This document shows, in pieces, positions 5,430 through 32,459 of a DNA stretch of 45,438 bases. How positions within the stretch are numbered: the stretch's first letter is position 1; every line of letters starts with the position of its first letter. Location: contig CACZJD010000009.1 of the NCBI GenBank assembly GCA_902781325.1, positions 1-45,438 on the forward strand, read 5' to 3'. The position numbers were made by a program, and so were the translations under genes. The notes below the pieces were generated by a model. The model saw only the letters and a list, made by a program, of their open reading frames with translations. It ran no database searches and was not told the DNA's origin. This stretch comes from an uncultured Lachnospiraceae bacterium (GTDB lineage Bacteria > Bacillota > Clostridia > Lachnospirales > Lachnospiraceae).

Positions 5430-7376
5430 ATGGAAAAAGATCGAGACGCGAACTATTCAGAAAAAATGTATACGAACGGATGGCCGTATGAAGATCTGAC
5501 AGGTACATCTGCGCCAGGGCAGGATATGTCCTTTTTCAGAGACGATGAGTCCAAAGTCTGGGAGCGGAGGCTCATGGCACCCGATCTGGGTCTTGACGAG
5601 TCTGCTCTGCAGTTATCAAAAGAGACCCGCAGCTTTCTATGGAAAGCCGGTTTGGTTCCTTACGTCTCAGATCAGCCGCTCACCGGAGCACTTCCGGAGA
5701 ATTCAGACGCTGAGATCGAGCGCAAAGACAACGGCTCCGATCAGACAGGCGAGAGCCCTGACCGGTCAGGCAGCCGCAGCTCACGTCCCGCCGCAAGTCA
5801 TGCCTCGAACAGGACTTCCAGGCGCAGCGAGGCCTGGGATATCCTGAGCGGGCAAGGCCCCACCAGCTATGCCGGCAGTACGGGCTCCGGCACCCGGTCA
5901 GGCGCAAGCTCCGGCAGCCGGTCACGCTTCAAACGAAAAGACGGCACAACCCGTTCCCGTTCCGCAGTATCCGCCGGCGTCAAGAAGGCCACTTCCACCT
6001 ACGAGAGCGTCCGCAGATCAATGCAGGCCAAGCCGGCAGTCCGCAGTAAGGGAAGCCCTGTTCTCATCCTTTCTCTTGTGATCTTCATTACGCTCTGCAT
6101 CACGGCAGGCACTTTCTTCTTTATCAGGAAGGCCGCTCCCGGACCTGACAATATCCCGATCGATCCGCCCGTCTTTGTCGGCGGAGATGACAGCGGGAAA
6201 GGAAATTCGGGAAGCGATATTTTGGCAGACTACGGATATGATTACAGTGACTTCTATACGCCGAAGTATATTGCTTCCTGCGAACAGCCCGGAGATTCTG
6301 ACCGATATAATGAGCTGTGTGTGATCGATCCGGAAGCCTTATTCGGAACTGCGGATCAGCCGGCGGATGAGAGAAAGCGGCTCTTCTACAGCAGCGTGTA
6401 TCCCACATGGATCACTCTCGGTTACATGAACACGGACTCCTACCGGGATTTTGGCTATACGATCATGTACGCTGATCCCGAGGATGACAATCCTTACGGC
6501 ATGCCGGATATCATGCTCCCTCCTCAGATGGCCGATCAGGGCGAATTCTTCGAAGCTGTCATTCACGGTTTTACCGATCCGGAATCTGATTCCCTGGATG
6601 ATTACAGTGATTTTAAGATCGGCAAAATACAGAGAGCCCTCATCGAAAAGCACTTCGTCATGTACCTGACGGTCACTTATAAAGACAGCGCGGGCCTCGA
6701 GATCCTCGATGTGTATTCCTTTGAACAGAAACCCTATGAAACAGCTTTCATTACGGAGTGCCGCTGCGAAAGCGATGATGTCACGGATGGTAAAGAAGTT
6801 CTTTCGAATCTCTACAAAATGCTGGCTTTCCATACTGACGACTTCGAGAACATAGATGCCGGCAGGCACCTGTTCACCAAGTCGCGCGTCTACAGCAGCC
6901 GGAACAGTTACTCCGCCGAGATTGACATCTCCGACCTCGGTGATCTCAAATACAGCAGAAATTTCTACAAGAATCTCGCCGCTTTCGGCATCGGTGAGTA
7001 CGACAGTTCCGGCAATCCCTTAATACAGGTTGATCTTAACTATCCGGCTTACAGTTCTGTGGAGGACCTCGGCGGCTATGAAGAATGGATCGATTATGCC
7101 CTTGAAAATGAGAATGACCGCGGGAACTATATAGAGCCTGCCGTGGAAACTGGCCGCGCGCAGTTCTTATTGGAAGACAACACTGTCTATTTCCTGTCGA
7201 TGGCAGGCACCGGGAAAATGCGCAAATCCGTCGAAGATATCGCTCTCTTCATGTACCGGATCGAGACTCCTGATGGAGAAGTCACATTGGATCTTCGTTT
7301 CGAACATGAGATCCCTGAAGATTGGGATCCCGAAGGATTCCTCAAAGAGCATATCACAATAGAAACAACAAACTAA
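5430..7376 (+). CDS. Single-pass membrane protein of unknown function
   Basis: I do not recognise this 648-residue protein. It has three parts. The N-terminal ~205 residues are polar and rich in Ser, Arg, Gly and Thr (for example the SGSRSS and SGTRSGASSGSRSR stretches), probably disordered and cytoplasmic. One strong transmembrane helix lies at about 209-233 (SPVLILSLVIFITLCITAG). An extracytoplasmic region of about 410 residues, acidic and aromatic, follows. There is no signal peptide or lipobox. The start at 5430 was chosen over an in-frame GTG at 5400 because an AAGGGTG sequence precedes it; MYTNGW further in is an alternative. It is convergent with the AraC gene and shares a bidirectional terminator. 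Confidence 0.7.
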   Translation: MEKDRDANYSEKMYTNGWPYEDLTGTSAPGQDMSFFRDDESKVWERRLMAPDLGLDESALQLSKETRSFLWKAGLVPYVSDQPLTGALPENSDAEIERKDNGSDQTGESPDRSGSRSSRPAASHASNRTSRRSEAWDILSGQGPTSYAGSTGSGTRSGASSGSRSRFKRKDGTTRSRSAVSAGVKKATSTYESVRRSMQAKPAVRSKGSPVLILSLVIFITLCITAGTFFFIRKAAPGPDNIPIDPPVFVGGDDSGKGNSGSDILADYGYDYSDFYTPKYIASCEQPGDSDRYNELCVIDPEALFGTADQPADERKRLFYSSVYPTWITLGYMNTDSYRDFGYTIMYADPEDDNPYGMPDIMLPPQMADQGEFFEAVIHGFTDPESDSLDDYSDFKIGKIQRALIEKHFVMYLTVTYKDSAGLEILDVYSFEQKPYETAFITECRCESDDVTDGKEVLSNLYKMLAFHTDDFENIDAGRHLFTKSRVYSSRNSYSAEIDISDLGDLKYSRNFYKNLAAFGIGEYDSSGNPLIQVDLNYPAYSSVEDLGGYEEWIDYALENENDRGNYIEPAVETGRAQFLLEDNTVYFLSMAGTGKMRKSVEDIALFMYRIETPDGEVTLDLRFEHEIPEDWDPEGFLKEHITIETTN

Positions 7377-7437
7377 AAAAAGCCCTCTGAGGCAGCTTGC
7401 AGACAGGCATCTGCAAACTGCTCCAGAGGGCTCTTAT
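7377..7437. terminator. Bidirectional terminator
   Basis: The outer stem is AGCCCTCTG with CAGAGGGCT and the inner stem is TTGCAGA with TCTGCAA. An A-rich run lies on one side and a weak T-rich side on the other. It separates the convergent membrane protein and AraC genes. Confidence 0.75.
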
Positions 7438-8361
7438 TCACTCATTTGGTACATCCGCAAGAAATTTCTCCCTGTAAGTCTTTCTGTATTTTGCCGGCGA
7501 CAATCCCTTCGCCTTCCGGAACATTCTGCTGAAATACATCGGATTGTCGTAGCCGATCACTGACGCAATGTTGGCTATGGAATAGTCCGTCGTCTCCAGC
7601 AGCACCTGCGCGTTGCGGATCCGGATATCCAGAATATACTTCATCGGCGATGTACCCACAGCGCCGCGAAAGCTCCGATTGAACCAGCTTGTAGACATAC
7701 TTCGGGACGCCGCATACTGCTCAATGCTGATCTCCTCGTTATAATGTTCCTCGAAATAGGCCTTCGCGCGGTCGATCTCCTCCTGGATGAATCCCGAGAC
7801 CTGCGGCATGGCCTCCGTCATCCGCCGGTGGATCATCAGCATCAGCTCCCGGAAAAGGTACGTCAGCATCTCCTCGTAGCCCCAGGAGCACTTTATCAGC
7901 TCGTCGCGCATCTTTCGAAAGCACTCCTCGTACTCCCGTGAGATCCCCGTGTGCAGGATATACCCGTCCAGCGGGATCTCATAGTGCTTCAGAATACTCT
8001 TAACCTGCCTTCCCGTGAAATGCACAAACCACACCTGCGTGCGGTCCTTCCCGTAGTAGAAATACTTCTGCTGCTGTTTGGGCTGGTACAGCACCATGTT
8101 GCCTGCAGGCACGATGACCTCCTGCCCGTCCAGCATAAAATGCCCCTCTCCGGCCGCGATATAAATGATCTGCCAGTCCACTCTGCCCTTAGGCCTCCAA
8201 GTCGGAAGCTTAGGCCAGGTAAACAGCTGATAAGTCCCTGCGCTCAGAATGCGGAGCGGCATCTTTTTCTCCTTGAAAGGCACCCTTGTATTGAACAGAT
8301 ATCCTGAATTCACATACAGATCTTTCCCCAGAACTTCGTTCTCTTTCTTATTTTCTTCCAT
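7438..8361 (-). CDS. AraC-family transcriptional regulator
   Basis: A 307-residue regulator. Residues ~60-150 form the sugar-sensing cupin domain (WQIIYIAAGEGHF, VPAGNMVLYQP). Residues ~195-300 form the double helix-turn-helix DNA-binding domain, with IASVIGYDNPMYFSRMFRKA and GLSPAKYRK as the signature. It is divergent from the beta-galactosidase/symporter operon and most likely activates it in response to a galactoside. The ATG at 8361 has a weak ribosome binding site. An internal ATG at MPLRILSAG has AAGGAG at the right distance, but relatives usually retain the longer N-terminus, so I keep the long form. Specific ligand unknown. Confidence 0.9.
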   Translation of the reverse strand: MEENKKENEVLGKDLYVNSGYLFNTRVPFKEKKMPLRILSAGTYQLFTWPKLPTWRPKGRVDWQIIYIAAGEGHFMLDGQEVIVPAGNMVLYQPKQQQKYFYYGKDRTQVWFVHFTGRQVKSILKHYEIPLDGYILHTGISREYEECFRKMRDELIKCSWGYEEMLTYLFRELMLMIHRRMTEAMPQVSGFIQEEIDRAKAYFEEHYNEEISIEQYAASRSMSTSWFNRSFRGAVGTSPMKYILDIRIRNAQVLLETTDYSIANIASVIGYDNPMYFSRMFRKAKGLSPAKYRKTYREKFLADVPNE

Positions 8362-13133: not shown

Positions 13134-13188
13134 TAAAGAGACCTCCGGGGTGGTTTGCTGAATGGCCCACTCCGGAGGTCTCTTTTTC
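13134..13188 (+). terminator. Terminator of the galactosidase/symporter operon
   Basis: AGAGACCTCCGG at 13137-13148 pairs with CCGGAGGTCTCT at 13172-13183, followed by a T run. It overlaps the end of a nitroreductase remnant on the other strand. Confidence 0.85.
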
Positions 13189-13324
13189 ATGGCGGTCGGC
13201 GCCATCATAGCCGCCTTCACGCCGTTTTTGAACAAGACCGGCATATCGGCCTCCGGTATATCGCAGATTTTTGACAGAGGTTTGGATTTGTGCTTCGCTC
13301 CCTGATCGCTTCTTTGATATCCAT
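13184..13324 (-). pseudogene. Nitroreductase family remnant
   Basis: On the minus strand an ATG (GAGAGGAGACAGGAA upstream) encodes MDIKEAIRERS, the usual N-terminus of a nitroreductase. That frame soon stops. In another frame 75-130 nt further on, the sequence reads KICDIPEADMPVLFKNGVKA followed by AMMAPTAM, which matches the mid-protein 'GVxAAxxAPTAxNQQ' block of FMN-dependent nitroreductases. The stretch between these blocks in a normal gene (over 100 residues) and all the rest are missing. It is a deeply degraded fragment, cut off at the terminator of the galactosidase operon. No function is expected. Confidence 0.6.
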
Positions 13325-13366: not shown

Positions 13367-16123
13367 TTACACAACATACTCATACACAAGTCTGTAATTA
13401 TGATCCCTGCACGCGATGACTTCCGAGTTCCACAGCGGCCGGAAGTCCGTGAAAACATCCTCAAACACAAACCCGCCGATATCGACTCCTTTGTCTGTAT
13501 TTCTCAATACATAGCCGTTCGGAAGCGAGAAGCTGACACGGCTCACACCGTTTTTGAACTTCATACTGTCCCTGCTGATCTCGGCAAGGTCTATTGTCTC
13601 CGGATCCGCATATTCCTGCGCGTACCACAGCAGGTGGTCCCCTGTCAGTCCGAGATACCGGTCCTTCGAGAATCTCTTCCAATCCGCCTCGCAGGCTATT
13701 TCCAGATTGTTTACGTCAAAATATCGCTTGCCCGACGCCTTATCGAATGCACTCAGTCTGTAATAGAAAGTGTACTCGAACATATCATTGCAGCTGTCGA
13801 ACTCATCCTCCTGATCATACTCCAGGATCAGTTCGGTCCGGCCGTTATCCGTCCGGTTCTTATATTCCTGCGTCATCGCGAATTCCTGTCCGGCAAGGCA
13901 CTCTCTGCGCTGCGGAACCGGCGTGGGCTCATCGGACGTCGGCACGACTGTGATCAGACTCCCCTTCTTATAATAAGCGCCAAGTTCAGACCACAGCTGC
14001 ATGGACGGCTCATGCATTGTAAGCACCTGGTCCGAAAGGCTCCTGCTCAGGGCATTATGTGTCCCCGCAACATCTCCTTTTTCCCAGCACTGCCTCGCTT
14101 CCTCGTAGTACCGGATCATGTCCTCTTCTGCCTTCAGTCTGGCGTCCACCGTGGCGATCCCGGCCAGTTCATAGGGCAGTTCTGTCTCCGGCCGGAGCCT
14201 TATGGCATCCACGGTCCAGCGCCCCCATCGCTGCTCCCAGTTCATATACTCGATGATCCCGCTCTCTGTATAGCCAAGCACTTCATAGGGCATTGTATCC
14301 CCGTCTTCATCAGGCAGTGGAGGCATAGAAAGCAGCAGCCGGCCGCTCTTCGCGTCAAAAAACCACAGCACGTCCGCCTGCATAACGACAAGCTCTGAAT
14401 CTGTGCCGGCGAACTTCACATCGTCGCTTTTGTAATAATGCGGATGCATGTAACTTCCGCCCCGCGGCGTTGATTCCCCGTAGTCCCCATAATCGTTCGC
14501 GTATTCCCTGATCTCTCCGGTCCTGAGATCCTCGATCCGGTATCCGTATTTTTCCGGCTGAAATCTCTCTTTTGTCATATAGCCCTTAACCTGATACGTG
14601 CCGTCACTGCTCGTATCCGAGAGGGGCATCAGCTCCTCCAGATTTCCGGGGCGCTCATCTTTCCTGTAAGAATACACCTTCTTACCGAGATCCCAGTTTC
14701 CGCGCATACCGGCCAGCTTATCCATGACCTCTGTATGCAGGCCGCTCTCATCGGCGTTCCCCCGCAGATAAGTCATGAACGCGGCATCACTGATCAGTCT
14801 CCTGTTCCAGCGGTGCAGAGCGTAATTATAGTGATACAGGAAAACGCTTCCGTCCTTGGAAACCGCCTGCTTCAGAAGCTCATCGGCCTCCTCATCTCTG
14901 CCGAGATCAATGTAGCTCAGCGCCTTATTGTTGAGGCTGGCCGCGGTATCTGCCGCAGTCCTCGGATCACTTCGCAGGTAAGGATGTCCGCTGACTGACT
15001 GGTAGATCTTTTCAAGTTCTGCTTCAATAATGCCGAAATCATGCGGCCGATCCTCCGGTCTCTCAGCCAGACAGCCGGTTAACAGCGCCCGAAGCAACTC
15101 CGGCATGGCGACACGGCTCTTGTCAAAATATCGTCCGCAGTTCCTCCCGGCCTCCGCTCCGTTCTTCCACGGCCTTGTACCCAGATACATCTCAAGTACG
15201 GACAGTGCCCAGCTGTATATATCCGTACGGCGTGTAAGGGGCTCCCCAAGATACTGCTCCGATGAACAGTAGGCGGGGGTATATCCGCCTGTTGCCGCGA
15301 TTAATGTGGCACCGGAATCTGCCCCGAAAGTGCCTGCAGGCTGTGTTCCGCCCCTTCCCGCGGCGTTCTCTCCTTGTTCTGTAAAAAGCTGAGTGCGCGC
15401 ACGCGCAAGCCCGAAATCGGCGACCTTCGCTTCCCACGTCATGGTCAGCAGCAGATTGTCCGGTTTGACATCCTGGTGGATCAGATGATCTCTTGACTCA
15501 TGCGCATAGTGAAGGCCTCTCGCAAACTGAATCGCGATATCCAGCAGCCTCGCCTGAATGATCCGCTCCCGATCACCTACGGTCCTTTTCTGCTCCTCTG
15601 AAACCTCATACAGAGAACCGTCCTCGATCCGGTTTTTGAGACTCCCGTTTTCCATCCACTCGGAAAAAATAGTCGGGACGCCGCTGATCTCACGGACGTA
15701 ATAGCAGGAAACAATATTGGGATGAAGTCCCAGATTGATCCAGGCCTCGCACTCGCGGACAAAGTTCTCTTTCCGCTTCTCGCTGCCTTCCGAGAAAAAC
15801 CTGGGCTGCGGCCGCTTCATAGCAAGATCCGTGTTCCACCCGCCATGCCGCACCTTCCAGACGCTTCCCATACCGCCCCTGACAGCGTCAGAGATCACCT
15901 CGTAGGTATCCAAAATTTTCGTTCCCCTGACAATCTCCTCATTAGTGATGGAATCCCGGTCCTTTGTAATTCCCGCCTCCGGATCATCCGGCCTGCTGTC
16001 CTCTTCCTGAATCGTTCCTTTGCTCATACTCAGGCTCATACTAAGGCTCAGGCTCTCATCAGAGAGTTTCTCCTCAGGCACCGTTTTTTTATTCTTATTC
16101 CTGAACAGGTCAAAAAAGCCCAT
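13367..16123 (-). CDS. Serine/threonine protein kinase with C-terminal repeat region
   Basis: A 918-residue soluble kinase. The kinase domain spans ~70-370: glycine loop RGGMGSVWKVRH, catalytic Lys in LAMKRPQ (~103), catalytic loop HQDVKPDNLL (~216-225) and DFG (~236-238). The loop has HQD instead of HRD, so it is a non-RD kinase. A Ser/Met/Leu-rich SLSLSMSLSMS tract precedes it. A TPR-like segment (~390-450) follows, then regions such as LWFFDAKSGRLLLS that resemble beta-propeller blades. No transmembrane segment is visible. The start was set at the ATG at 16123 because AAGGGGA is seven bases before it and only one base before the ATG at 16129. Its leader shares a 13-nt string with the DAC-like operon upstream. 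Confidence 0.88.
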   Translation of the reverse strand: MGFFDLFRNKNKKTVPEEKLSDESLSLSMSLSMSKGTIQEEDSRPDDPEAGITKDRDSITNEEIVRGTKILDTYEVISDAVRGGMGSVWKVRHGGWNTDLAMKRPQPRFFSEGSEKRKENFVRECEAWINLGLHPNIVSCYYVREISGVPTIFSEWMENGSLKNRIEDGSLYEVSEEQKRTVGDRERIIQARLLDIAIQFARGLHYAHESRDHLIHQDVKPDNLLLTMTWEAKVADFGLARARTQLFTEQGENAAGRGGTQPAGTFGADSGATLIAATGGYTPAYCSSEQYLGEPLTRRTDIYSWALSVLEMYLGTRPWKNGAEAGRNCGRYFDKSRVAMPELLRALLTGCLAERPEDRPHDFGIIEAELEKIYQSVSGHPYLRSDPRTAADTAASLNNKALSYIDLGRDEEADELLKQAVSKDGSVFLYHYNYALHRWNRRLISDAAFMTYLRGNADESGLHTEVMDKLAGMRGNWDLGKKVYSYRKDERPGNLEELMPLSDTSSDGTYQVKGYMTKERFQPEKYGYRIEDLRTGEIREYANDYGDYGESTPRGGSYMHPHYYKSDDVKFAGTDSELVVMQADVLWFFDAKSGRLLLSMPPLPDEDGDTMPYEVLGYTESGIIEYMNWEQRWGRWTVDAIRLRPETELPYELAGIATVDARLKAEEDMIRYYEEARQCWEKGDVAGTHNALSRSLSDQVLTMHEPSMQLWSELGAYYKKGSLITVVPTSDEPTPVPQRRECLAGQEFAMTQEYKNRTDNGRTELILEYDQEDEFDSCNDMFEYTFYYRLSAFDKASGKRYFDVNNLEIACEADWKRFSKDRYLGLTGDHLLWYAQEYADPETIDLAEISRDSMKFKNGVSRVSFSLPNGYVLRNTDKGVDIGGFVFEDVFTDFRPLWNSEVIACRDHNYRLVYEYVV

Positions 16124-16152
16124 ATCCATTCCCCTTCACACAAACAACCTCC

Positions 16153-16177
16153 GGGGCTGTTTGTTTCTTACATTATA
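16153..16177 (-). promoter_or_regulatory. Promoter and shared leader element of the kinase gene
   Basis: On the minus strand a TATAAT (16172-16177) is followed by AACAAACAGCCCC (16153-16165), the same 13-nt string found in the leader of the DAC-like operon at 17980-17992. Here ACAAACA can pair with TGTTTGT a few bases on, forming a hairpin whose loop contains GGAGG. No good -35 is visible. Confidence 0.5.
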
Positions 16178-16181
16178 CAAC

Positions 16182-16223
16182 AAAAGCAGATAATGCACGC
16201 ATTAACGTGCATTTATCTGCTTT
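16182..16223 (-). terminator. Terminator of the DAC-like operon
   Basis: AAGCAGATAAATGCACG pairs with CGTGCATTATCTGCTT, followed on the minus strand by TTTTGTTG. It separates the DAC-like operon from the kinase gene; the kinase -10 lies in its tail. Confidence 0.75.
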
Positions 16224-16246
16224 ATATCGTTGTCCCGATAAATATC

Positions 16247-17365
16247 TTACACCAGCGGCAGCGCCACATTGTCATACACGACGACCTTCCCGTCATGCTG
16301 CGTACACGCCTCGATCGTTCCATCCTGTGAAATGATGAAAGCCACGCTGTCCGGTACCGCGCTGCAGAACCGATATCCGGCTCTGTGACGCATTCCGTTG
16401 TCCTTGAACTGCTTGCGTTTGTTTTCCGTATTGTCAAATTCCACAAACCGCATCGCCGGGTGCTTGCTGCCCATCTTATCCACCAGCGTCTCCGCTCCGA
16501 ATCCCAAGAGATGCAGATCCTTTGTCAGTACCACCGATCCGTCCACCGATGTGAGCTTCGCGATCAGATCCGCGTAAGTAACGATCTCTTTCTCCCGGGC
16601 ACTCTCCGACAGTTCTTCCAGCCGCTCGCTGTCGCTGAACAGATACCCTGAAGGCAGCCGGTACTTGATGTCCACATACTCCTTGCACGACTCCTCGTCC
16701 GGCACGATCAGAATAGCGCCGCCATGACGATAATCACTCACCATCCACAGGATCCGGTAGAGCAGCCTCAGACGTTCCTGATTGCTCACATGCGCGCCGT
16801 TTTCGAGCTGCTGTGACACCAGTGTAGACGTGAAGGTATCCGTCCGGAAGAAAACGCAGTGTCCGGCGCGGTAATTCACAAGTGATCCCTCGCCAAAACA
16901 CGCCTCCAGTTCTCCCGGTCCTTCGACCAGGATATTGGGGATCCGGGGCATCCTGTTGCCCGTAGTAAGCTCGCGGGTGATTATTTTTTGCCATGTTGTG
17001 TAAGAAGCTATGATCCCGATCGCTTTAAACGGCCTTTCACTGATATCCAGTACCAGATAACTCATGTCCGGGTTCAGTGCCGGCGCGAGCTTGTTCATTT
17101 CTCTGGTATTGAATTCGATCGGTTTACTGAACAGAAGTGTGTGCGAATAAATGTATGCGCTCAAAAGTTCCGAATCCGGCCGGATAAAGCACACTCTGAA
17201 CGAAGGAAATCTCCCCTCCTCGCGCATGCAGCTGATATTTAAAAGAGTCTGGCACACATCTTCCAGCACATCTTTCGAAGGGAGCCTCTGATCGTCCTCA
17301 AAAGCAGCGCCCATGCCCTCATAGCAGTTGTATATTGCTTCGACAAAATCTGTGATACCGCCCAT
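16247..17365 (-). CDS. Diadenylate cyclase (DAC)-like protein with unknown N-terminal domain
   Basis: A 372-residue protein whose C-terminal half looks like a DAC (DisA_N-type) nucleotidyl cyclase fold. Visible blocks are HGGAILIVP (214-222), SVDGSVVLTKDLHLLGFGAE with the DG(A/S) motif (275-277), GMRHRAGYRF with the RHR motif (326-328), and VAFIISQDGTI (342-351). In canonical DACs the DGA Asp and RHR bind metal and ATP, and the last block reads SEE; here it is SQD. The N-terminal ~200 residues match nothing I know and may be a sensor. It may make a cyclic dinucleotide or only bind nucleotides. It begins 1 nt after the stop of the 188-residue partner. It is not the usual housekeeping CdaA or DisA: it has no membrane helices and no DNA-binding tail. 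Confidence 0.72.
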   Translation of the reverse strand: MGGITDFVEAIYNCYEGMGAAFEDDQRLPSKDVLEDVCQTLLNISCMREEGRFPSFRVCFIRPDSELLSAYIYSHTLLFSKPIEFNTREMNKLAPALNPDMSYLVLDISERPFKAIGIIASYTTWQKIITRELTTGNRMPRIPNILVEGPGELEACFGEGSLVNYRAGHCVFFRTDTFTSTLVSQQLENGAHVSNQERLRLLYRILWMVSDYRHGGAILIVPDEESCKEYVDIKYRLPSGYLFSDSERLEELSESAREKEIVTYADLIAKLTSVDGSVVLTKDLHLLGFGAETLVDKMGSKHPAMRFVEFDNTENKRKQFKDNGMRHRAGYRFCSAVPDSVAFIISQDGTIEACTQHDGKVVVYDNVALPLV

Positions 17366-17366
17366 T

Positions 17367-17933
17367 TTAGTTCTCGAGATCCTCCATATGGCAAATTATA
17401 AAGCCAACTTTGATCACATCCGGAATCTCCGCGCTGGGGAACCGCTCGTCAAATGCCTTGACCATCTTCTCACCATCTGGAGAATTCGTGTATGCATAGA
17501 ACATATCAGAGAAGTCCTCATACCGCCTGCAGAATCTCTCCACCGGATTGCCGTCTTGCGGGATCTCAAGTTTAAAAAATTCCTTGGCAAGTATCTCATC
17601 CCAGATCGCAAACCTGGGGTTGATCGTATGCACCAGAATACTCGCAGCAGGCATTACATTTTCGTTCGAGACCTCTCGAAGTCTTTCAAACGCTTCCCTG
17701 AAAGAAATGTTGCTCATGCGCTTCATCTCTTCCAGCAGATAGAAAAACTGTGTTCTGAACTTTTCCGAGTAACCGTCATTAAGCCTGTAAAGGTCGCAGT
17801 ATGCATCCTGGAAAGTATAATCATCAGACGCGTCTGTACTAAACAGCGCACCGGTTACAAATTTGTATTTCCTGAGCATATCAGCAATTGCATCACTGGC
17901 TACAATTCCCTTAACATTCGCTATATCGATCAT
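17367..17933 (-). CDS. Uncharacterised protein, partner of DAC-like gene
   Basis: A 188-residue soluble, mostly helical protein that I cannot assign firmly. The central VHTINPRFAIWDEILAKEFF block resembles the 'NPxxFPIWDS' segment seen in helix-hairpin-helix/DNA-glycosylase-like uncharacterised proteins, which would hint at nucleic-acid contact, but this is weak. The start is placed at MIDIANVKG because GAGGAGGAAGG lies immediately upstream; a start six codons earlier would overlap that ribosome binding site. It is the first gene of a two-gene operon with the DAC-like protein (1-nt gap), so the two very likely work together. The leader shares an element with the kinase gene. Confidence 0.75.
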   Translation of the reverse strand: MIDIANVKGIVASDAIADMLRKYKFVTGALFSTDASDDYTFQDAYCDLYRLNDGYSEKFRTQFFYLLEEMKRMSNISFREAFERLREVSNENVMPAASILVHTINPRFAIWDEILAKEFFKLEIPQDGNPVERFCRRYEDFSDMFYAYTNSPDGEKMVKAFDERFPSAEIPDVIKVGFIICHMEDLEN

Positions 17934-17979
17934 ACCTTCCTCCTCATGCAATGAACTCCCAACAGCTGCAAGCGGCTCT

Positions 17980-18012
17980 GGGGCTGTTTGTTCTGCCTGT
18001 CCTTAAATTATA
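17980..18012 (-). promoter_or_regulatory. Promoter and shared leader element of the DAC-like operon
   Basis: On the minus strand TATAAT (18007-18012) in the context TTGTATAAT is followed by AACAAACAGCCCC (17980-17992), identical to the kinase leader string. The AACAGC part can pair with GCTGTT about 15 nt further on. The spacing from the -10 is 8 nt longer than in the kinase leader. Confidence 0.5.
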
Positions 18013-18586: not shown

Positions 18587-18696
18587 AATTCTCCTCCTTT
18601 AGATTTATGGGTTTTCTCCATTTTATCAAATCTGCACGGCTGATTGAAAAAAAAATACGACCTTCCCTTTTTTTCCTGCTTTGAAGCATGTTCGCG

Positions 18697-18757
18697 TTGC
18701 AATACAGGTCAAATGACCTATACTATAAACATAATAAAGGAGGCGGACGCCTCCTTT
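18697..18757 (+). promoter_or_regulatory. Promoter with operator-like palindrome and leader hairpin of the surface protein gene
   Basis: A -35 candidate TTGCAA (18697-18702) and a -10 TATACT (18719-18724) are 16 nt apart. The spacer carries the palindrome AGGTCA-AA-TGACCT (18706-18719). Downstream, AAAGGAGGC pairs with GCCTCCTTT around a 4-nt loop (18736-18757) and is followed by more T, a terminator-like hairpin placed before the true ribosome binding site AAGGAGG. Confidence 0.45.
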
Positions 18758-18781
18758 TTGGCAACAGACAAGGAGGATTCA

Positions 18782-20872
18782 ATGAAAAAAACTCTGCTTA
18801 GAAAACTGCTGATCGCGGTCCTGTCTTCAATTCCGGTTGCAGCGGCTGTTAGTATAACTGCTGCCGCGGCAGAAACAACTTATGCCTCTCAGGAAGAGAG
18901 TCTCTCTGAAATTGAGGAAGAGACTGCACCTCCTGAGGAGACTGCACCGCCGGAGGAGACTGCCCTGCCGGAAGAAACTGCCCTGCAGGAAGAAACTGCC
19001 CTGCCCGCAAATGAGGAAGCGTCTGCATCTCCGGAAACAGCGGATCTTCCCGGAAACGAAGAAGAAATCTCCGTGCCCGTTGAATCAGAAGTTCCGGGAA
19101 CAGACGAAAGTCAGGAAGAAGCCGACACTGAGGATAAGGGGCAGAATGATACTGATATACAGCCCGACTCCGAATCAGAGGCATTATCCGACACCAAAGC
19201 CCAGGCGCAGACCGGATCCGAACCCGAGGTCACCGGCGAAGAGGCGCTGCTTGCAAGCGCGGACACTGCAGAAAATGCCCCCGCTGAAGGCGGACAGAAA
19301 GAATCCTTCTTTGACCGCATCCACTTCATAAGTCTCGATGATAACTTTGCCGCTTCCGACTCGATCCTGGTCGAAAGCAACGGTCACTTTGGCCTTGTCG
19401 ACGCTTCGCATCCCTCTTCAGACCCCGACCCCAGTATAAGCGGGTATACAGTAGATGTAGATAATGTGATCACTTACCTTCAGGTGGCCGGCGTCATGCA
19501 TCTTGACTTTATTTTGGGGACACACAGTCACTCCGACCACATCGGCGGAATGAAATTCATTGCCTCTGCGCTTAATAAAGAGGGGAACTACTGGGTCGAT
19601 TCCAATACGGTCTATTACTACAAGAATTATCACTATAACCAGTTAGAAGAAGGTGAATGGGGGTGGCAGAATACGAGAATGTTCCGCCAGTCAATTGAAG
19701 CAATGGCTGCAAGAGGAGCCATCATGGTGGAGACCAGTGCCCACAACGCAGAGGCGCTGCAGAAAGCAAACGCGGAGTTTGTTAAAGGAGACAACGGACC
19801 GGTTACCGACAGCATTGAGTTTTCGCTCGGTGATTTTGTGATATCGCTGTTTAATCTCTATCACAATTCTTCCGACAACGAGAATCTCAACAGCATTATC
19901 ACTGCTGTCAGAAAAGATGAGCGCACGACGCTTCTGATGGGCGACCTGGAAATGGAAGGCGGATATGAGCGCAAGATCGCGAATACGGTTGCGTCAAAAT
20001 ATCAAAACGCGGATGTCATCAAAGTCGCGCATCACGGCTATGACGAATGTACCAGCAGCGACATGCTTAATACACTTCAGCCGTCCTATATTGTGACCAC
20101 TTCAAACCGGACCCGCAATTTCTATGACGATGAGCCTCCCTACAACTATTATCTCTCCTATCACGGAATCACTGCCTACAGAGCGGCGGAAGCATTTAAG
20201 GCGCTGGTAGAGGAATTGACCGGGGACGGCATCCGTTTCTATACTTATGACCGCAGCGGCAGCCTGACAAGGGATCCTGTTGAATGGATCGGCCGCATGA
20301 CTCCGGGCTGGAAGAAATGGCATCGCGACGACGGAACATTCGACTATATTTTCGTTAATAATGACGGCAGCGTCGCGACAGGATGGAACCGGCTTACAAG
20401 AAACGGAAAAACGAGCTGGTATCTCTTCGGTCAGGACGGCCTGAATCTCAGAGGTTTTCAGACAATCGGACAGAATACTTATTATCTGAACGCCAAGGGA
20501 GAGATGCAGACCGGGTGGGTGCGCGACAACGGCACATGGTATTACATGAACGGCAGCGGCGCTATGCTCACCGGGTGGCAGAAAGTCAATGGCAGATGGT
20601 ATTACATGGACGCCGGAGGCGCCATGCTCATCGGATGGCAGAAAATCAACGGCACATGGTATTACATGGACGCCGGCGGCGCCATGCTCACCGGATGGCA
20701 GAAAATCAATGGTAAATGGTATTACCTGAGTGCCGGCGGTGCCATGCTCACCGGATGGCAGCGGATCAACAACAAATGGTACTATATGGATATCAGCGGC
20801 GCTATGCTCACCGGATGGCAGCAGATCGACGGCAAGTGGTACTACTTCTATGCCAGCGGTGCCTTGAAGTAA
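18782..20872 (+). CDS. Secreted metallo-beta-lactamase-fold protein with choline-binding repeats (Pce/CbpE-like)
   Basis: A 696-residue exported protein. A signal peptide spans ~1-30. Next is an acidic linker with six-residue repeats of the ETAPPE/ETALPE type (~40-70) continuing to ~170. A metallo-beta-lactamase domain begins at ~176, with HSHSDH at 248-253, Asp in MGDLE (~388) and KVAHHG (~415-418). About eight 20-residue GWxxxxGxWYYMxxxGAMLT repeats close the protein (~500-696). This domain order and the 'IHFI...SDSILVESNGHFGLVD' start match pneumococcal phosphorylcholine esterase Pce. The likely role is cleaving phosphocholine or a related ester at the cell surface while bound to choline-bearing wall polymer. 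The start at 18782 has AAGGAGG; an upstream in-frame extension crosses the promoter. The 3' end overlaps the PHP gene. Confidence 0.85.
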   Translation: MKKTLLRKLLIAVLSSIPVAAAVSITAAAAETTYASQEESLSEIEEETAPPEETAPPEETALPEETALQEETALPANEEASASPETADLPGNEEEISVPVESEVPGTDESQEEADTEDKGQNDTDIQPDSESEALSDTKAQAQTGSEPEVTGEEALLASADTAENAPAEGGQKESFFDRIHFISLDDNFAASDSILVESNGHFGLVDASHPSSDPDPSISGYTVDVDNVITYLQVAGVMHLDFILGTHSHSDHIGGMKFIASALNKEGNYWVDSNTVYYYKNYHYNQLEEGEWGWQNTRMFRQSIEAMAARGAIMVETSAHNAEALQKANAEFVKGDNGPVTDSIEFSLGDFVISLFNLYHNSSDNENLNSIITAVRKDERTTLLMGDLEMEGGYERKIANTVASKYQNADVIKVAHHGYDECTSSDMLNTLQPSYIVTTSNRTRNFYDDEPPYNYYLSYHGITAYRAAEAFKALVEELTGDGIRFYTYDRSGSLTRDPVEWIGRMTPGWKKWHRDDGTFDYIFVNNDGSVATGWNRLTRNGKTSWYLFGQDGLNLRGFQTIGQNTYYLNAKGEMQTGWVRDNGTWYYMNGSGAMLTGWQKVNGRWYYMDAGGAMLIGWQKINGTWYYMDAGGAMLTGWQKINGKWYYLSAGGAMLTGWQRINNKWYYMDISGAMLTGWQQIDGKWYYFYASGALK
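20521..20870 (+). repeat. 60-bp tandem coding repeats (choline-binding motifs)
   Basis: Roughly six near-identical 60-bp units encode the GWQKINGxWYYMDAGGAMLT motif; the middle copies differ at only a few bases. Such tracts change copy number by recombination or slippage. Confidence 0.85.
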
Positions 20873-28040: not shown

Positions 28041-31000
28041 TCACTTCTCTACCCACGGAATCCCTTTTGCGTCCAGACGTCTCTGGACCTCGGTGCCCGG
28101 ATTGCAGTGAATGACAAACCTGTACTCGCCTGTCTCGTAATCCTTAGCCCCGATGTCGCCGATATTTAATACGGAGTCCGGAAGATAGATGTCCGTCACT
28201 TTATCACAGCCTGCAAGGGCTGAATACTCAATATACAGCGTTCCCTCGGGGACGATCAGATCTCCCTCCAGGAGTGTTGGAACAGCTGCAAGTGTTCTCC
28301 CGTCTTTGCTCATAAGCAGCCCGTCCGCCGACATATAGTTCTCGCTCTTCTCGTCCACTTCAAATCTCTCGAACAAAATATTGTCGAGGAATTTGTTCTT
28401 GATAACAAGATTTGCCGGTATACGGATCACGTCCTGAGTGAAAGTTTTATTAAGCCCGGCACTGAAAGCAGCGTAGCCCAGTTTCTCCAGTTTTTCCGGA
28501 AGTTCGATCTTTCCGTATCCATCTCCCGGCGTAAAAGCTGCTGCGCCGATCGAGGTGACAGAGGACGGCAGCTGCACGTTCTGAAGAGGGCAATCGTTGA
28601 AAGCCCTGTCTCCGATCTCTTTGAGCCCTTTGGCAAATACCACATCCGTCAGAGATGAGCAGCTCCCGAACGCGCTCTTGCCGATCGTCCTCAGGGACTT
28701 GGGCAGCGTGACTTTAGTCAGGAAAGAATTGAGATAAAACGCGCCTTCCCCGATCGTCTCTGTTTTGCCTGGGACCGTATATTCCGCGTCTTCCTTCTGC
28801 TTCGGATAAACGAGCAGGGTCTCCCCCTTCGCATCAAACAGGACGCCGTCCACACATTTATAATTCTTATTGTTCGCGCCGGTCTCCAATTCCTTCATCA
28901 TGTAGAAATCAGAGAAAAACGAGCCCTCGATTGCGCTCACGCTGTCCGGAATGACTACTTTGGAATAGTAGTTGCTATAGTACTGATTATTGTCCTTCCT
29001 GATCGCAGTCACCGGAAGTTCCCTGAACTCGGACGGGATCGTAAGCGTCCCTTTGTCGCTTCCGCTGCACCCGACCAGTTCCGCGTGATCTTTGAAGATG
29101 CGCCAAGTCATAGCCGCAGGTTCTGCGCTTTCCGCTCCGGCCATTTCCTCCGTCACAGTTTCGTAAACAAGGTTCTCCGGATCCGTCACGTCATCATAGG
29201 CGATCTCAAACTGCTTTGCATAAGATTCTGCCGCAGAGCCCTTCGAGCAGTGAAGTTTGACTTTATAAATATACTGATATTGTCCTGTTTCGTCCTGCTC
29301 GCCAAGATCATACGGGAAAACGCTCTTGCCGAACCGGAAAACACTGTCCGGGATCACAACATCCTCAGCGTCATCACAGTACGTAAGCAGATTGTCCTGC
29401 AAAGTAGTGATCCCATCCGGGATCATGATAATTTTGCCCATCCCCTGAGGCACCTCCAGGATCATATCCTTTGCTTTGCTCGTAATGAATCCGCCCGAAG
29501 AGGCAAAATAGGGATTGCTCTCCTCCACCTCAAAGGCCGCGATATTCATCATGCTGAAGGCTTCTTTTCCGATATGCTGCATATTCGGTCCGATATGCAT
29601 CGTCTCAATAAGCGGATTTTCTTCGTTTCCGAACCTGAATAACATATATTCTCCGAAAGCGGAATCTCCGACCGTTTCAATGCTGTCGGGAAGATTGAAA
29701 GAGGAAAGGCTCTGGCAGTCGAAAAACGCCATATTCTCTACGCTCTTAAGCGATTCCGGAAGAACCGCGCTCTCAATGAGGGAGCCAGCAAAGGATCCGT
29801 ACGCGATCGTCTCCGTTCCCTTCTCCACAGCGTATTCACCGCTCCGTGCGCCCGGATACTGGATCAGTGTCCTGCCGTCCTTGGTGTACAGGACGCCATT
29901 TACTGTTTTATAACTCTCATTGCATTCATCTATTGAGATCTCCGTGAGGTTTTCACAGTCCGCGAACGGTATAGAACCGATCATCTGCAGTCCGCCGGGC
30001 AGTGTCACTGACTCTAAAGCCGTCCTTGAAAACGCGCCTCTCTTGATCACTTCCACGCTCTCCGGAATCTCGACCGACGTAAGCCCGCTTCCGCGGAAAG
30101 CCGATATTCCGATCGTTCTGATCCCCTCAGGCAGCGTGACCTTCCTGCAGTTCGTCAGTCCCGAGAAAGCTTCGTCTCCGATCTCCGTCACTTTTTTGCC
30201 GGAGACTTCGGACGGCACTGTGATCTCTGTATCCTCTCCTTCATAGTCGGTGATCACCGCTTCCTCTCCGGAAACATCGGCGTACATCGTTCCGTTTTCA
30301 GTGCCTATCACTTTATATTTTCCGCTGTGATCCAGTTCAAGATCGATGAACTCCGACCCGTGGACATTGCCGTTGATGTCCTTCACAGTTACCTGGCAGA
30401 TGAAGTCCTTGTCAAAGCCGGATGCCGGCTTCATTTCGAGCCTGAAACCGTGATCCAGACACAGCGGATACATCTCATATCCCGTGGATTTCCACTCGGT
30501 AAACGGCTTCATATTTCCTTTATCATCGCGCCGGGGATTATAAGAAATACTTCCCGCGTTGATGAGCGATTCATAGTTGGAGACGTCGATCGACGCCTTG
30601 CCGCCGGCCCAGGCACTGCCGGACGCGGAGGTGATATCGAGAACGGAGGTCTCCGTCTCACCCGCAATGTTCTTGGCAGTGATCACGACCTCTTCATCCT
30701 TATCCCAGTCAACATCCATGAACTCATGCCCGGACGTTAGATAACAGTTGACCGTTCTGTAAACGGATTCAGCGTCATTGTTCTGTGACTGCACGCATGT
30801 GAGCGGTGCCGGCGCTTCTTCCATATCTGTCGCAACAGTCAGCAGCATCGGATCTGACGGAATATGCAAAACACTGTTCTCATCCGGATCCACGGCAATA
30901 TTGGCAGTAGTGATGGCATAGTCGCCGAAACTGTTCCTCTGTAAAACAGTGTAGAAAGCCTGAGAGGTATTCCTGACCTGCTCATCGGTGAGCTGAAGTG

Positions 31001-32459
31001 TCAGTTCCTCTCCTTCGCGCTGAATCTCCGGCATAGTCCAGTCTGTGTTCGACCCCTCGATCCAGCTGTCCATATAAGAGGTGACAAAGGCAGAATACTC
31101 AGGGGACAGCGAGGTTTCTTCCGAATACAGTTCTCCGGAGACGCCGTAAAGTTCCAGGTTATCACCCGGAAGATAAATAGAAATACCATTAGCGCCGCTG
31201 ACATTGGATGTATGATTCACCACCATTTCATCGACCGCCTCAAGGATGCCGCGGCTCTCCTCGGGATACAGTTCCGAAACATTTTCAGCAAGATGCTTAA
31301 GATCCAGAAGATCGAAAGCATCCTCTTTGCCGCTGGCCGCGCCCAGACCAAAAGCCTTTGTCTTAGCTCTGGCCTGGTTCAGTTCAGGGTAATTTCCCTG
31401 TTTAATTCCGATCTTCATCGCCTCAAAAAGCGCATTTGCGCTGTCGATCAGCGTATCTGTCCTGCTCAGATCCATTGCCGCCAGCGTTACGTCGGGGTTA
31501 AAAAACTCCGACCTGTTCTCTTCATAATATTTTCCGTAAGCCTCGACGATCGAGCTGACGATCGTCCTGGCGTCATCGGTCTCATTGAGCTTGGACAGGA
31601 AACTGTAATCCCAGCCCCGTCCGGATTCAAGTTCCTCTGAACCGACCATATACTGCGCATAGTCCTTCCAGAGTTTGGCACTCTCAACAGATCCCATAAG
31701 GCAGGCGTCAAAACCTACAAAATCCAGTTTTTTATCTCCCGCAAACAGGGTCTGGTCCATAGCGCCCTTAAGCTCCTCCAGCAGCAGGCTGTCATTTCCG
31801 AACAGTTCATCGCTGCCGTATCCCCAGAGTGGGCCCGCGCCGTGGTCCCAAAGCACCAGTCCGTAGTGCCTGGCCGGATAATTGGTCGTACAGTAATTGA
31901 TGAACTCAGCCAGAGTGCCTGCGGCGCCCATATCCGCAGTCTCTGAAGTCTGCGCTGTCACCTCCAGCTGTTCACCGTTTTCCATATTAATGACGCTATT
32001 GCATGTATTCGATATCGCGCTGGTCCATCTCTTGCTGCCGCCGGTGTAGACAAGGAGATTGTTCCTGCTGAAATCAAGATTCGACCCGATCATTTCTTTC
32101 ATGTCGTTTGTGGCTGCCCCGTAGCGGCTCTCAAGGTTGGATCCTACGATATAGACCATTACCGTGAAGTCCTTTTCAAGAGCTCTCGGCCCGTCCTTCG
32201 CAGCGTACAGCGCTGTGCCTTTCACATTGGTCTGCTCGGTCTTTTTTGCCTGGGCGGCGCGGCTGTAATCCGTATCCTCCTCGCCCATGATCACCAGTTC
32301 CGGCTTCTTATTCTGGTCCGGGATCTGAGCTGCCGTCTCCGTGTCCTCCGCAGTCGAACCGCTGCCGCTTTGTGTTCCGGCAGGCGCCCCTGGCCCCGCG
32401 CAGGCACCAAGCGTCAGTATAAAGCAAATAAGCAGTGCTGATATCCTTCTCATCTTCAT
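28041..32459 (-). CDS. Clostripain-family (C11) cysteine protease lipoprotein with BspA-type leucine-rich repeats
   Basis: A 1472-residue surface lipoprotein. The signal ends LTLGAC (Cys20). A clostripain-like C11 protease domain covers ~100-470: DFTVMVYIVGSNLESRYGAA, the catalytic His206 in LVLWDHGAG and Cys253 in GFDACLMGS. The central region (~480-720) has no assigned fold. From ~760 to ~1440 there are many LRR_5/BspA units (for example TEIGDEAFSGLTNCRKVTLP, ESVTLPGGLQMIGSIPFADC), in three blocks separated by non-repeat inserts. The likely role is a cell-surface protease that recognises host or microbial partners. The start has AAGAGGTGAC upstream. Confidence 0.88.
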   Translation of the reverse strand: MKMRRISALLICFILTLGACAGPGAPAGTQSGSGSTAEDTETAAQIPDQNKKPELVIMGEEDTDYSRAAQAKKTEQTNVKGTALYAAKDGPRALEKDFTVMVYIVGSNLESRYGAATNDMKEMIGSNLDFSRNNLLVYTGGSKRWTSAISNTCNSVINMENGEQLEVTAQTSETADMGAAGTLAEFINYCTTNYPARHYGLVLWDHGAGPLWGYGSDELFGNDSLLLEELKGAMDQTLFAGDKKLDFVGFDACLMGSVESAKLWKDYAQYMVGSEELESGRGWDYSFLSKLNETDDARTIVSSIVEAYGKYYEENRSEFFNPDVTLAAMDLSRTDTLIDSANALFEAMKIGIKQGNYPELNQARAKTKAFGLGAASGKEDAFDLLDLKHLAENVSELYPEESRGILEAVDEMVVNHTSNVSGANGISIYLPGDNLELYGVSGELYSEETSLSPEYSAFVTSYMDSWIEGSNTDWTMPEIQREGEELTLQLTDEQVRNTSQAFYTVLQRNSFGDYAITTANIAVDPDENSVLHIPSDPMLLTVATDMEEAPAPLTCVQSQNNDAESVYRTVNCYLTSGHEFMDVDWDKDEEVVITAKNIAGETETSVLDITSASGSAWAGGKASIDVSNYESLINAGSISYNPRRDDKGNMKPFTEWKSTGYEMYPLCLDHGFRLEMKPASGFDKDFICQVTVKDINGNVHGSEFIDLELDHSGKYKVIGTENGTMYADVSGEEAVITDYEGEDTEITVPSEVSGKKVTEIGDEAFSGLTNCRKVTLPEGIRTIGISAFRGSGLTSVEIPESVEVIKRGAFSRTALESVTLPGGLQMIGSIPFADCENLTEISIDECNESYKTVNGVLYTKDGRTLIQYPGARSGEYAVEKGTETIAYGSFAGSLIESAVLPESLKSVENMAFFDCQSLSSFNLPDSIETVGDSAFGEYMLFRFGNEENPLIETMHIGPNMQHIGKEAFSMMNIAAFEVEESNPYFASSGGFITSKAKDMILEVPQGMGKIIMIPDGITTLQDNLLTYCDDAEDVVIPDSVFRFGKSVFPYDLGEQDETGQYQYIYKVKLHCSKGSAAESYAKQFEIAYDDVTDPENLVYETVTEEMAGAESAEPAAMTWRIFKDHAELVGCSGSDKGTLTIPSEFRELPVTAIRKDNNQYYSNYYSKVVIPDSVSAIEGSFFSDFYMMKELETGANNKNYKCVDGVLFDAKGETLLVYPKQKEDAEYTVPGKTETIGEGAFYLNSFLTKVTLPKSLRTIGKSAFGSCSSLTDVVFAKGLKEIGDRAFNDCPLQNVQLPSSVTSIGAAAFTPGDGYGKIELPEKLEKLGYAAFSAGLNKTFTQDVIRIPANLVIKNKFLDNILFERFEVDEKSENYMSADGLLMSKDGRTLAAVPTLLEGDLIVPEGTLYIEYSALAGCDKVTDIYLPDSVLNIGDIGAKDYETGEYRFVIHCNPGTEVQRRLDAKGIPWVEK

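Follow-up and report, generated by a model that had tools for sequence, protein, structure and literature searches.

The window analysed here, 45,438 nucleotides (nt) long, is contig C9 (CACZJD010000009.1) of an uncultured Lachnospiraceae bacterium, whose assembly amounts to 3.0 Mb in 219 contigs and is 82% complete. Three genes follow each other on its minus strand (Table 1), encoding a 188-residue protein (P188), a 372-aa protein with an N-terminal DACNV domain and a predicted C-terminal DAC domain (the DAC protein), and a Hanks-type Ser/Thr kinase. An earlier interpretation made from the letters alone (the sequence-only reading) had described the 188-residue gene and the DAC-fold gene with a 1-nt gap, on the same strand as the kinase, and the open reading frames (ORFs) and coordinates agree with it. 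The gap of 1 nt from the P188 stop to the DAC start was kept in 4/4 orthologous loci (L022-L025, from coordinates). Purifying selection acts on all three genes (ratio of nonsynonymous to synonymous substitution rates, dN/dS, 0.04-0.11). The DAC values were 0.04-0.06 (10 pairs), those of P188 0.07-0.11 (also 10 pairs), and those of the kinase 0.09-0.10, from the 3 pairs that remain when the split L022 copy is omitted. On balance we favour the view that the DAC protein, with its DACNV-DAC architecture, serves as a second, soluble diadenylate cyclase gated by its sensor domain, and that the kinase is an independent neighbour.

The DACNV domain, which Pfam names merely as a probable sensor domain, was recognised at residues 24-119 with 69.3 bits against a curated cut-off of 27. 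An AlphaFold2 model of the DAC protein was built from 18 sequences and compared with the PDB by Foldseek, which gave 41 matches at E <= 0.001. The best 50 matches were all DAC-fold entries, including DisA, CdaA/DacA, CdaM/DacM, other diadenylate cyclases and the B. cereus protein 2fb5. DisA leads them (best E 1.1e-5), together with CdaA and CdaM, and the template modelling score (TM) reached 0.67 when normalised by CdaA. The DACNV score and these fold matches bear out the DAC-fold call of the sequence-only reading. D275, G276 and R326-H327-R328 were invariant in 18/18 relatives, which are 63-96% identical to the window protein. In M. tuberculosis DacA, according to PMC3328451, replacement of RHR by AAA abolished activity while a change of the Gly in DGA did not, and RHR was essential for ATP binding. 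By modelled fold and aligned motifs a C-terminal DAC domain is present, a level which the Pfam score alone does not reach. The sequence-only proposal of a nucleotide producer or sensor stands as far as the diadenylate cyclase fold and most motif residues go; we infer the catalysis, its product, the sensing role and the role of P188. A separate CdaA, followed by a CdaR-like gene (the CdaR name is our judgement), is encoded elsewhere in the same genome (locus L001), so the 372-aa protein is probably an extra, sensor-gated diadenylate cyclase.

Several observations weigh against an active cyclase. The Pfam match to DAC (residues 317-354) scored 23.4 bits, under the curated cut-off of 27. The model is of moderate quality (mean predicted local distance difference test, pLDDT, 78.6; predicted TM, pTM, 0.64), and the TM normalised by the query was just 0.26-0.30. 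At the third position of the first motif 15/18 sequences have Ser and 3/18 have Ala, giving mostly DGS rather than DGA; Met precedes RHR in 18/18, against Thr in the CdaA of the same genome and in Hymenobacter; and SQ stands in place of SE. Profile comparison with the genome's own CdaA was weak (7% probability), and a PDB sequence profile search with the DAC alignment gave 0 matches. The sub-threshold score, altered motifs, moderate model, low query TM and weak profile matches make it possible that the DAC domain is a catalytically dead receptor, which would bind c-di-AMP (cyclic di-AMP) or ATP and report on the housekeeping CdaA. We regard this as unlikely, because D275 and RHR have stayed invariant in all 18 sequences over the identity range given above, and RHR is the element described as essential for ATP binding in PMC3328451.

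The DAC protein was found in 18/61 genomes of the genus (G099 lay outside the DAC search; P188 and the kinase were counted over 62). The identity of PheT inside this "genus" spans 99% to 31%, and the association p values given below are uncorrected for kinship. The 18 DAC genes fall into a set of five with 92-100% identity, to which that of the window belongs, and a set of 13 with 63-70%. A PheT identity of at least 88% was seen in 13 genus genomes, of which 11 carried DAC, 10 P188 and 4 the orthologous kinase; the two without DAC are 71% and 77% complete. DAC was found in 0/38 genomes from other families of the order and in 1/397 genomes of the family, namely the own genome. DACNV was found in 1/398 genomes of the phylum (again the own) and in 0/14 controls, a search whose sensitivity is not shown by any other positive. 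The 17 DAC-relative loci with names belong to 15 Lachnospiraceae, 1 Eubacteriales and 1 Sarcina sp. DSM 11001; the RUG names of several denote rumen genomes. Distant relatives lie on two Hymenobacter plasmids.

The kinase gene appears to be an unrelated neighbour of DAC, and the trio does not appear to form one signalling or defence system. The sequence-only reading had joined the three genes in one regulon and named co-occurrence across genomes as the check. When this was run over the 18 DAC-bearing genus genomes, P188 stood next to DAC in 5 and the kinase did so in 4, all of these genomes being close relatives. Rare co-occurrence of DAC and kinase is the outcome that the sequence-only reading had itself named as refuting it. 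Neither P188 nor the orthologous kinase was found in the fetched flanks of the other 13 DAC genes; these flanks were uneven, with lengths down to 1.2 kb on the upstream side (L026) and 0.3 kb on the downstream side (L036). In the near-identical locus L023 (G033) a full-length nitroreductase-like gene directly follows DAC with no kinase between. The same gene is full-length 3' of the kinase in L022 and L024, and a mere remnant in the window and L025.

Divergence also differs along the locus. Between the window and L025 the kinase gene is 93% identical in its first half and 97% in its last half, and the MFS and lacZ-like genes beyond it are 96% identical, against 88% over DAC. The DAC genes of L022 and L023 are closer to the window (92%) than that of L025, and P188 is 87-88% identical to all four. 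Synonymous divergence (dS) between the window and L025 was lowest for the kinase (0.175) and higher for DAC (0.563) and P188 (0.761). These discordant identities and dS values suggest that a recombination boundary separates DAC from the kinase. A terminator-like hairpin, which was absent from the sequence-only reading, lies in the DAC-kinase gap. Counterparts are present in 3/3 other kinase-bearing loci (L022, z -6.3; L024, z -5.0; L025, z -4.1).

Kinase-family matches (E <= 1e-30) occurred in 11/62 genus genomes, including the 4 with the orthologue, and the non-orthologous matches end by residue 462 of 920. A search by tblastn found neither DAC nor P188 in 11/11 loci of related kinases. In L029 a weak kinase-domain match (23% identity, E 2.5e-6) lies about 9 kb from DAC. 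A regulon in which the kinase controls the cyclase or is its target could be argued from the adjoining of the trio on one strand in 4 genomes, from a leader string that the genome has at this locus only, and from the association of DAC with the kinase family over 61 genomes (7 both, 3.2 expected, p = 0.011; kinases at E <= 1e-30 in 11 genomes, orthologues included). The association is gone without the five-genome group that shares the P188-DAC adjacency (3 both, 1.6 expected, p = 0.20), and the neighbourhoods, the missing kinase in L023, the related-kinase loci without DAC or P188, the discordant divergence, the hairpin and the unconserved leader all stand against it. We therefore rejected the three-gene operon or regulon, which is already largely refuted and in our estimate very improbable.

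The sequence-only reading had given the P188-DAC pair and the kinase separate promoters with a shared leader string. A TATAAT box does precede each, but neither site is listed in a sigma-70 consensus scan, so the claim of separate promoters depends on those boxes. The string also exists: TATAAT followed after 0-30 nt by AACAGCCCC had 2 occurrences in the 3.0-Mb assembly, both at this locus, and the reversed control pattern had 0. It is a 17-nt repeat, with a third copy (82%) at 13143-13159. Among the five loci the exact 12-mer ACAAACAGCCCC is found in the window only; the kinase leaders carry it with one change in L024 and L025 and two changes in L022, and it is missing from the P188 leaders of L022-L025. 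TTGTATAAT recurs 5' of both P188 and kinase in every locus having them. Since no orthologous P188 leader keeps the string and the kinase leaders are altered, it was rejected as a conserved regulatory signature, and reads as a local resemblance rather than a conserved regulon signal.

The kinase itself has the Lys, H-x-D and DFG motifs. Its tail, described earlier as a repeat tail, contains one tetratricopeptide repeat (TPR) detectable by Pfam and no more, is without a family match above cut-off, and gave only weak matches to PDB sequences (E 0.09 or worse). PADLOC matched Mad6 (132.8 bits) and PD-T4-6 (100.2 bits) over the kinase region; the NCBIfam Mad6 score was 77.3 bits against a cut-off of 460, and membership in the methylation-associated defence system (MADS) was rejected. 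By eye, a Ser-rich N-terminal peptide like SLSxSxSISK stands before the kinase domain in 13/15 kinases (window about 16020-16055; kinase starts in L084-L093), an impression only, as a regular expression matched 3/15. A kinase paralogue of the own genome (contig C15, L084:7097-10879) lies directly 3' of a TOTE-conflict-system primase/helicase gene (L084:3791-6796; AEP-TOTE, 250.8 bits). The L091 kinase is likewise preceded by an ORF that starts almost identically and has the same length; none is listed in L092.

Searches of Pfam, NCBIfam and PADLOC with thresholds as loose as E 1 left P188 without a match. Its model is confident and all-helical (pLDDT 91.8). The best PDB fold match, 8-oxoguanine glycosylase 3knt, is weak (E 1.1, probability 0.35), and a degenerate HhH-GPD protein may be taken as a weak lead. 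The viral fold library gave none at E <= 0.001, PDB sequences gave only weak matches (E 0.09 or worse), and a plasmid search gave nothing useful. Matches to P188 occurred in 13/62 genus genomes. The own genome has a second P188-like gene (contig C113, L146:4367-4902), which is broken into parts in two frames.

The P188-DAC pair is the sole part of the locus with a possible joint function, their adjacency being seen in five genomes only. Presence of the two was associated over 61 genomes (9 both, 2.9 expected, p = 2e-5), with P188 first counted at E < 1e-40 (10 genomes) and then over all 13. Without the five-genome group 4 genomes had both against 1.2 expected (p = 0.008, uncorrected for kinship); with weaker P188 matches included p was 0.07. 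This association outside the group counts against the reading we prefer and favours some P188-DAC link.

We also collected 22 further P188-like loci (L075-L083 and L134-L146, L146 being the split second copy). In 6/22 a restriction, bacteriophage exclusion (BREX), STAND or similar gene lies within a few kb (Table 1), among picked neighbours and with no background rate; L141 has an integrase nearby. P188 forms the end part of longer ORFs in L138 (303 aa), L139 (348 aa) and L140 (367 aa), and Pfam found no accepted domain in those of L138 and L139. Together with the 1-nt gap in 5/5 loci, the association, and a reported case of a DAC gene beside a pair of the cyclic oligonucleotide-based antiphage signalling system, CBASS (PMC13092281), the BrxC, STAND, GmrSD/MrcB/macro, HsdS and Eco57I-type methylase neighbours and the longer ORFs would fit a two-gene stress or anti-phage module, in which P188 would respond to a cue, for instance altered DNA, by either releasing or blocking the synthesis of c-di-AMP. 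However, P188 does not adjoin 13/18 DAC genes. It is present in 16/397 family genomes, 15 of them besides the own, and in such a sample of 397 DAC was matched in no genome besides the own; four other genus genomes (G024, G045, G053, G054) hold both on different contigs. The 14 scanned window proteins include no recognised defence gene save general kinase matches, and neither protein was matched in 50,697 phage records. We judge this module somewhat less likely still than the dead receptor, and any P188-DAC conflict module possible but unlikely. The boldest form receives little credence from us: in it P188 would be a mobile helical domain of defence islands, joined in one lineage to a chromosomal DACNV cyclase to give a c-di-AMP stress or anti-phage switch, with P188 as detector.

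The defence reading of the locus offered earlier was not supported by the surroundings of the DAC genes. No CBASS cyclase or effector was found in the 14 window proteins scanned. For the 13 solo DAC genes, 46 neighbours were picked by eye from ORF lists, as were those P188 neighbours that were scanned with Pfam. These 46 included no recognisable CBASS cyclase or effector (25 of 45 Pfam families listed); the families listed are mostly metabolic or transport ones, with AI-2E transporter and class II aldolase at 4 members each. There were PADLOC matches to 23 families, with a single member each; those to Mad3, Mad8, helicase and TIR cover general ABC-type ATPase, helicase and TIR regions, and a PDC-S07 match (E 2.6e-49) was not traced to its protein. 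One TIR-domain protein (L038:12308-13771, assigned through its PADLOC matches) is encoded downstream of a solo DACNV-DAC gene at a distance of 1.8 kb, in 1/13 solo loci, and a SAVED-TIR model matched it over the TIR part only. Scans of viral contigs gave nothing useful.

Table 1. Coordinates of the features at the locus and of P188-like genes elsewhere
Feature	Locus	Coordinates	Strand	Remarks
P188	window	17367..17933	-	ORF 17367-17951; 188 aa counted from ATG at 17933; all-helical protein
DACNV-DAC protein	window	16247..17365	-	372 aa; candidate soluble diadenylate cyclase
Hanks-type Ser/Thr kinase	window	13367..16129	-	920 aa; 918 from second ATG; Pkinase 94.3 bits
DACNV probable sensor domain	window	17009..17296	-	aa 24-119; Pfam PF21751, 69.3 bits
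DAC active-site motif stretch	window	16382..16543	-	DGS aa 275-277, RHR aa 326-328
TATAAT box, P188-DAC leader	window	18007..18012	-	pattern search; TTGTATAATTTAA precedes P188 in 5/5 loci
TATAAT box, kinase leader	window	16172..16177	-	pattern search, leader comparison
Terminator-like hairpin, DAC-kinase gap	window	16176..16232	-	57 nt; -29.4 kcal/mol, z -8.3; also in consensus scan
Broken nitroreductase-like gene remnant	window	13179..13324	-	full-length in L022, L023, L024; name judged from sequence
P188-like gene	L083	7829-8386		BrxC within few kb
P188-like gene	L077	7612-8277		DUF4062-STAND gene within few kb
P188-like gene	L078			DUF4062-STAND gene within few kb; called by start resembling that of L077
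P188-like gene	L139	4796-5842		GmrSD/MrcB/macro genes within few kb
P188-like gene	L143	750-1313		HsdS within few kb
P188-like gene	L140	5815-6918		Eco57I-type methylase within few kb
P188-like gene	L138	1875-2786		ORF with P188 as end part

Elsewhere in the window, the plus-strand region 18644-20872 encodes choline-binding repeats with a weak, sub-threshold metallo-beta-lactamase match, and 28041-32459 on the minus strand encodes a clostripain-family peptidase of 1472 aa with BspA-type leucine-rich repeats. An Rfam scan of the window gave 0 matches. Two pieces of a second, divergent PheT are present in the assembly (G000:C184 and window 35842-38274; 62% and 79% identity), perhaps contamination or a second copy.

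In the reading we prefer, the N-terminal DACNV domain would sense a cytoplasmic cue, and this cue would control the head-to-head meeting of two C-terminal DAC domains. DAC enzymes need such head-to-head dimers, as stated in PMC8573169. Upon meeting, the domains would turn two ATP into c-di-AMP, or would fail to do so, alongside the housekeeping CdaA. P188, presumably co-translated with the DAC protein in one closely related species group, would in the simplest case be a modulator of the cyclase. The downstream kinase would be an independent orphan from a small kinase family of the genus, behind the terminator-like hairpin.

The word DACNV was not found in the literature searched, most subscription papers lying outside it. 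The domain reportedly goes back to Galperin 2023 (J Bacteriol). A conserved Gram-positive DACNV-DAC protein beside a normal CdaA could show why a cell needs a second, soluble source of c-di-AMP, and what DACNV senses. The tempting three-gene reading is corrected here, and P188, as an unnamed helical family recurring near defence genes, is worth a study of its own.

In comparison with known systems, the kinase resembles the Mad6 (MADS) and PD-T4-6 kinases in the kinase region, about residues 71-396, and not in the tail. The DAC protein is like DisA in being a soluble DAC protein, and DisA is its best PDB fold match. In DisA the DAC domain comes first, ahead of a helix-hairpin-helix part, whereas here the DAC domain is last. 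In DS-2 of DefensePredictor a DAC gene lies beside a CBASS pair, and 15/30 homologues are near CBASS, as given in PMC13092281. The present protein is like that of DS-2 in being a DAC protein outside the housekeeping set, but neither a cGAS-like cyclase nor a phospholipase was found beside the DAC gene here. With CdaA it shares the DAC fold and the Asp-Gly and RHR motifs. CdaA is membrane-bound according to PMC8573169, and the own copy is followed by a CdaR-like gene; the DAC protein, unlike it, has an N-terminal DACNV domain and no CdaR-like neighbour in the window. The closest architecture is that of Hymenobacter monticola WP_243520307.1, annotated as DACNV-containing (22% identity over residues 45-369, E 2e-15), whose gene (L113:7878-9086) has a patatin-like phospholipase gene (5560-7809) directly upstream. 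The Hymenobacter protein has DGA and GTRHR, against mostly DGS and GMRHR here. Both proteins have the DAC motifs at the end, a similar long spacing between them and SQDG replacing SEE, and the DACNV-DAC protein of the window is a further example of this known architecture.

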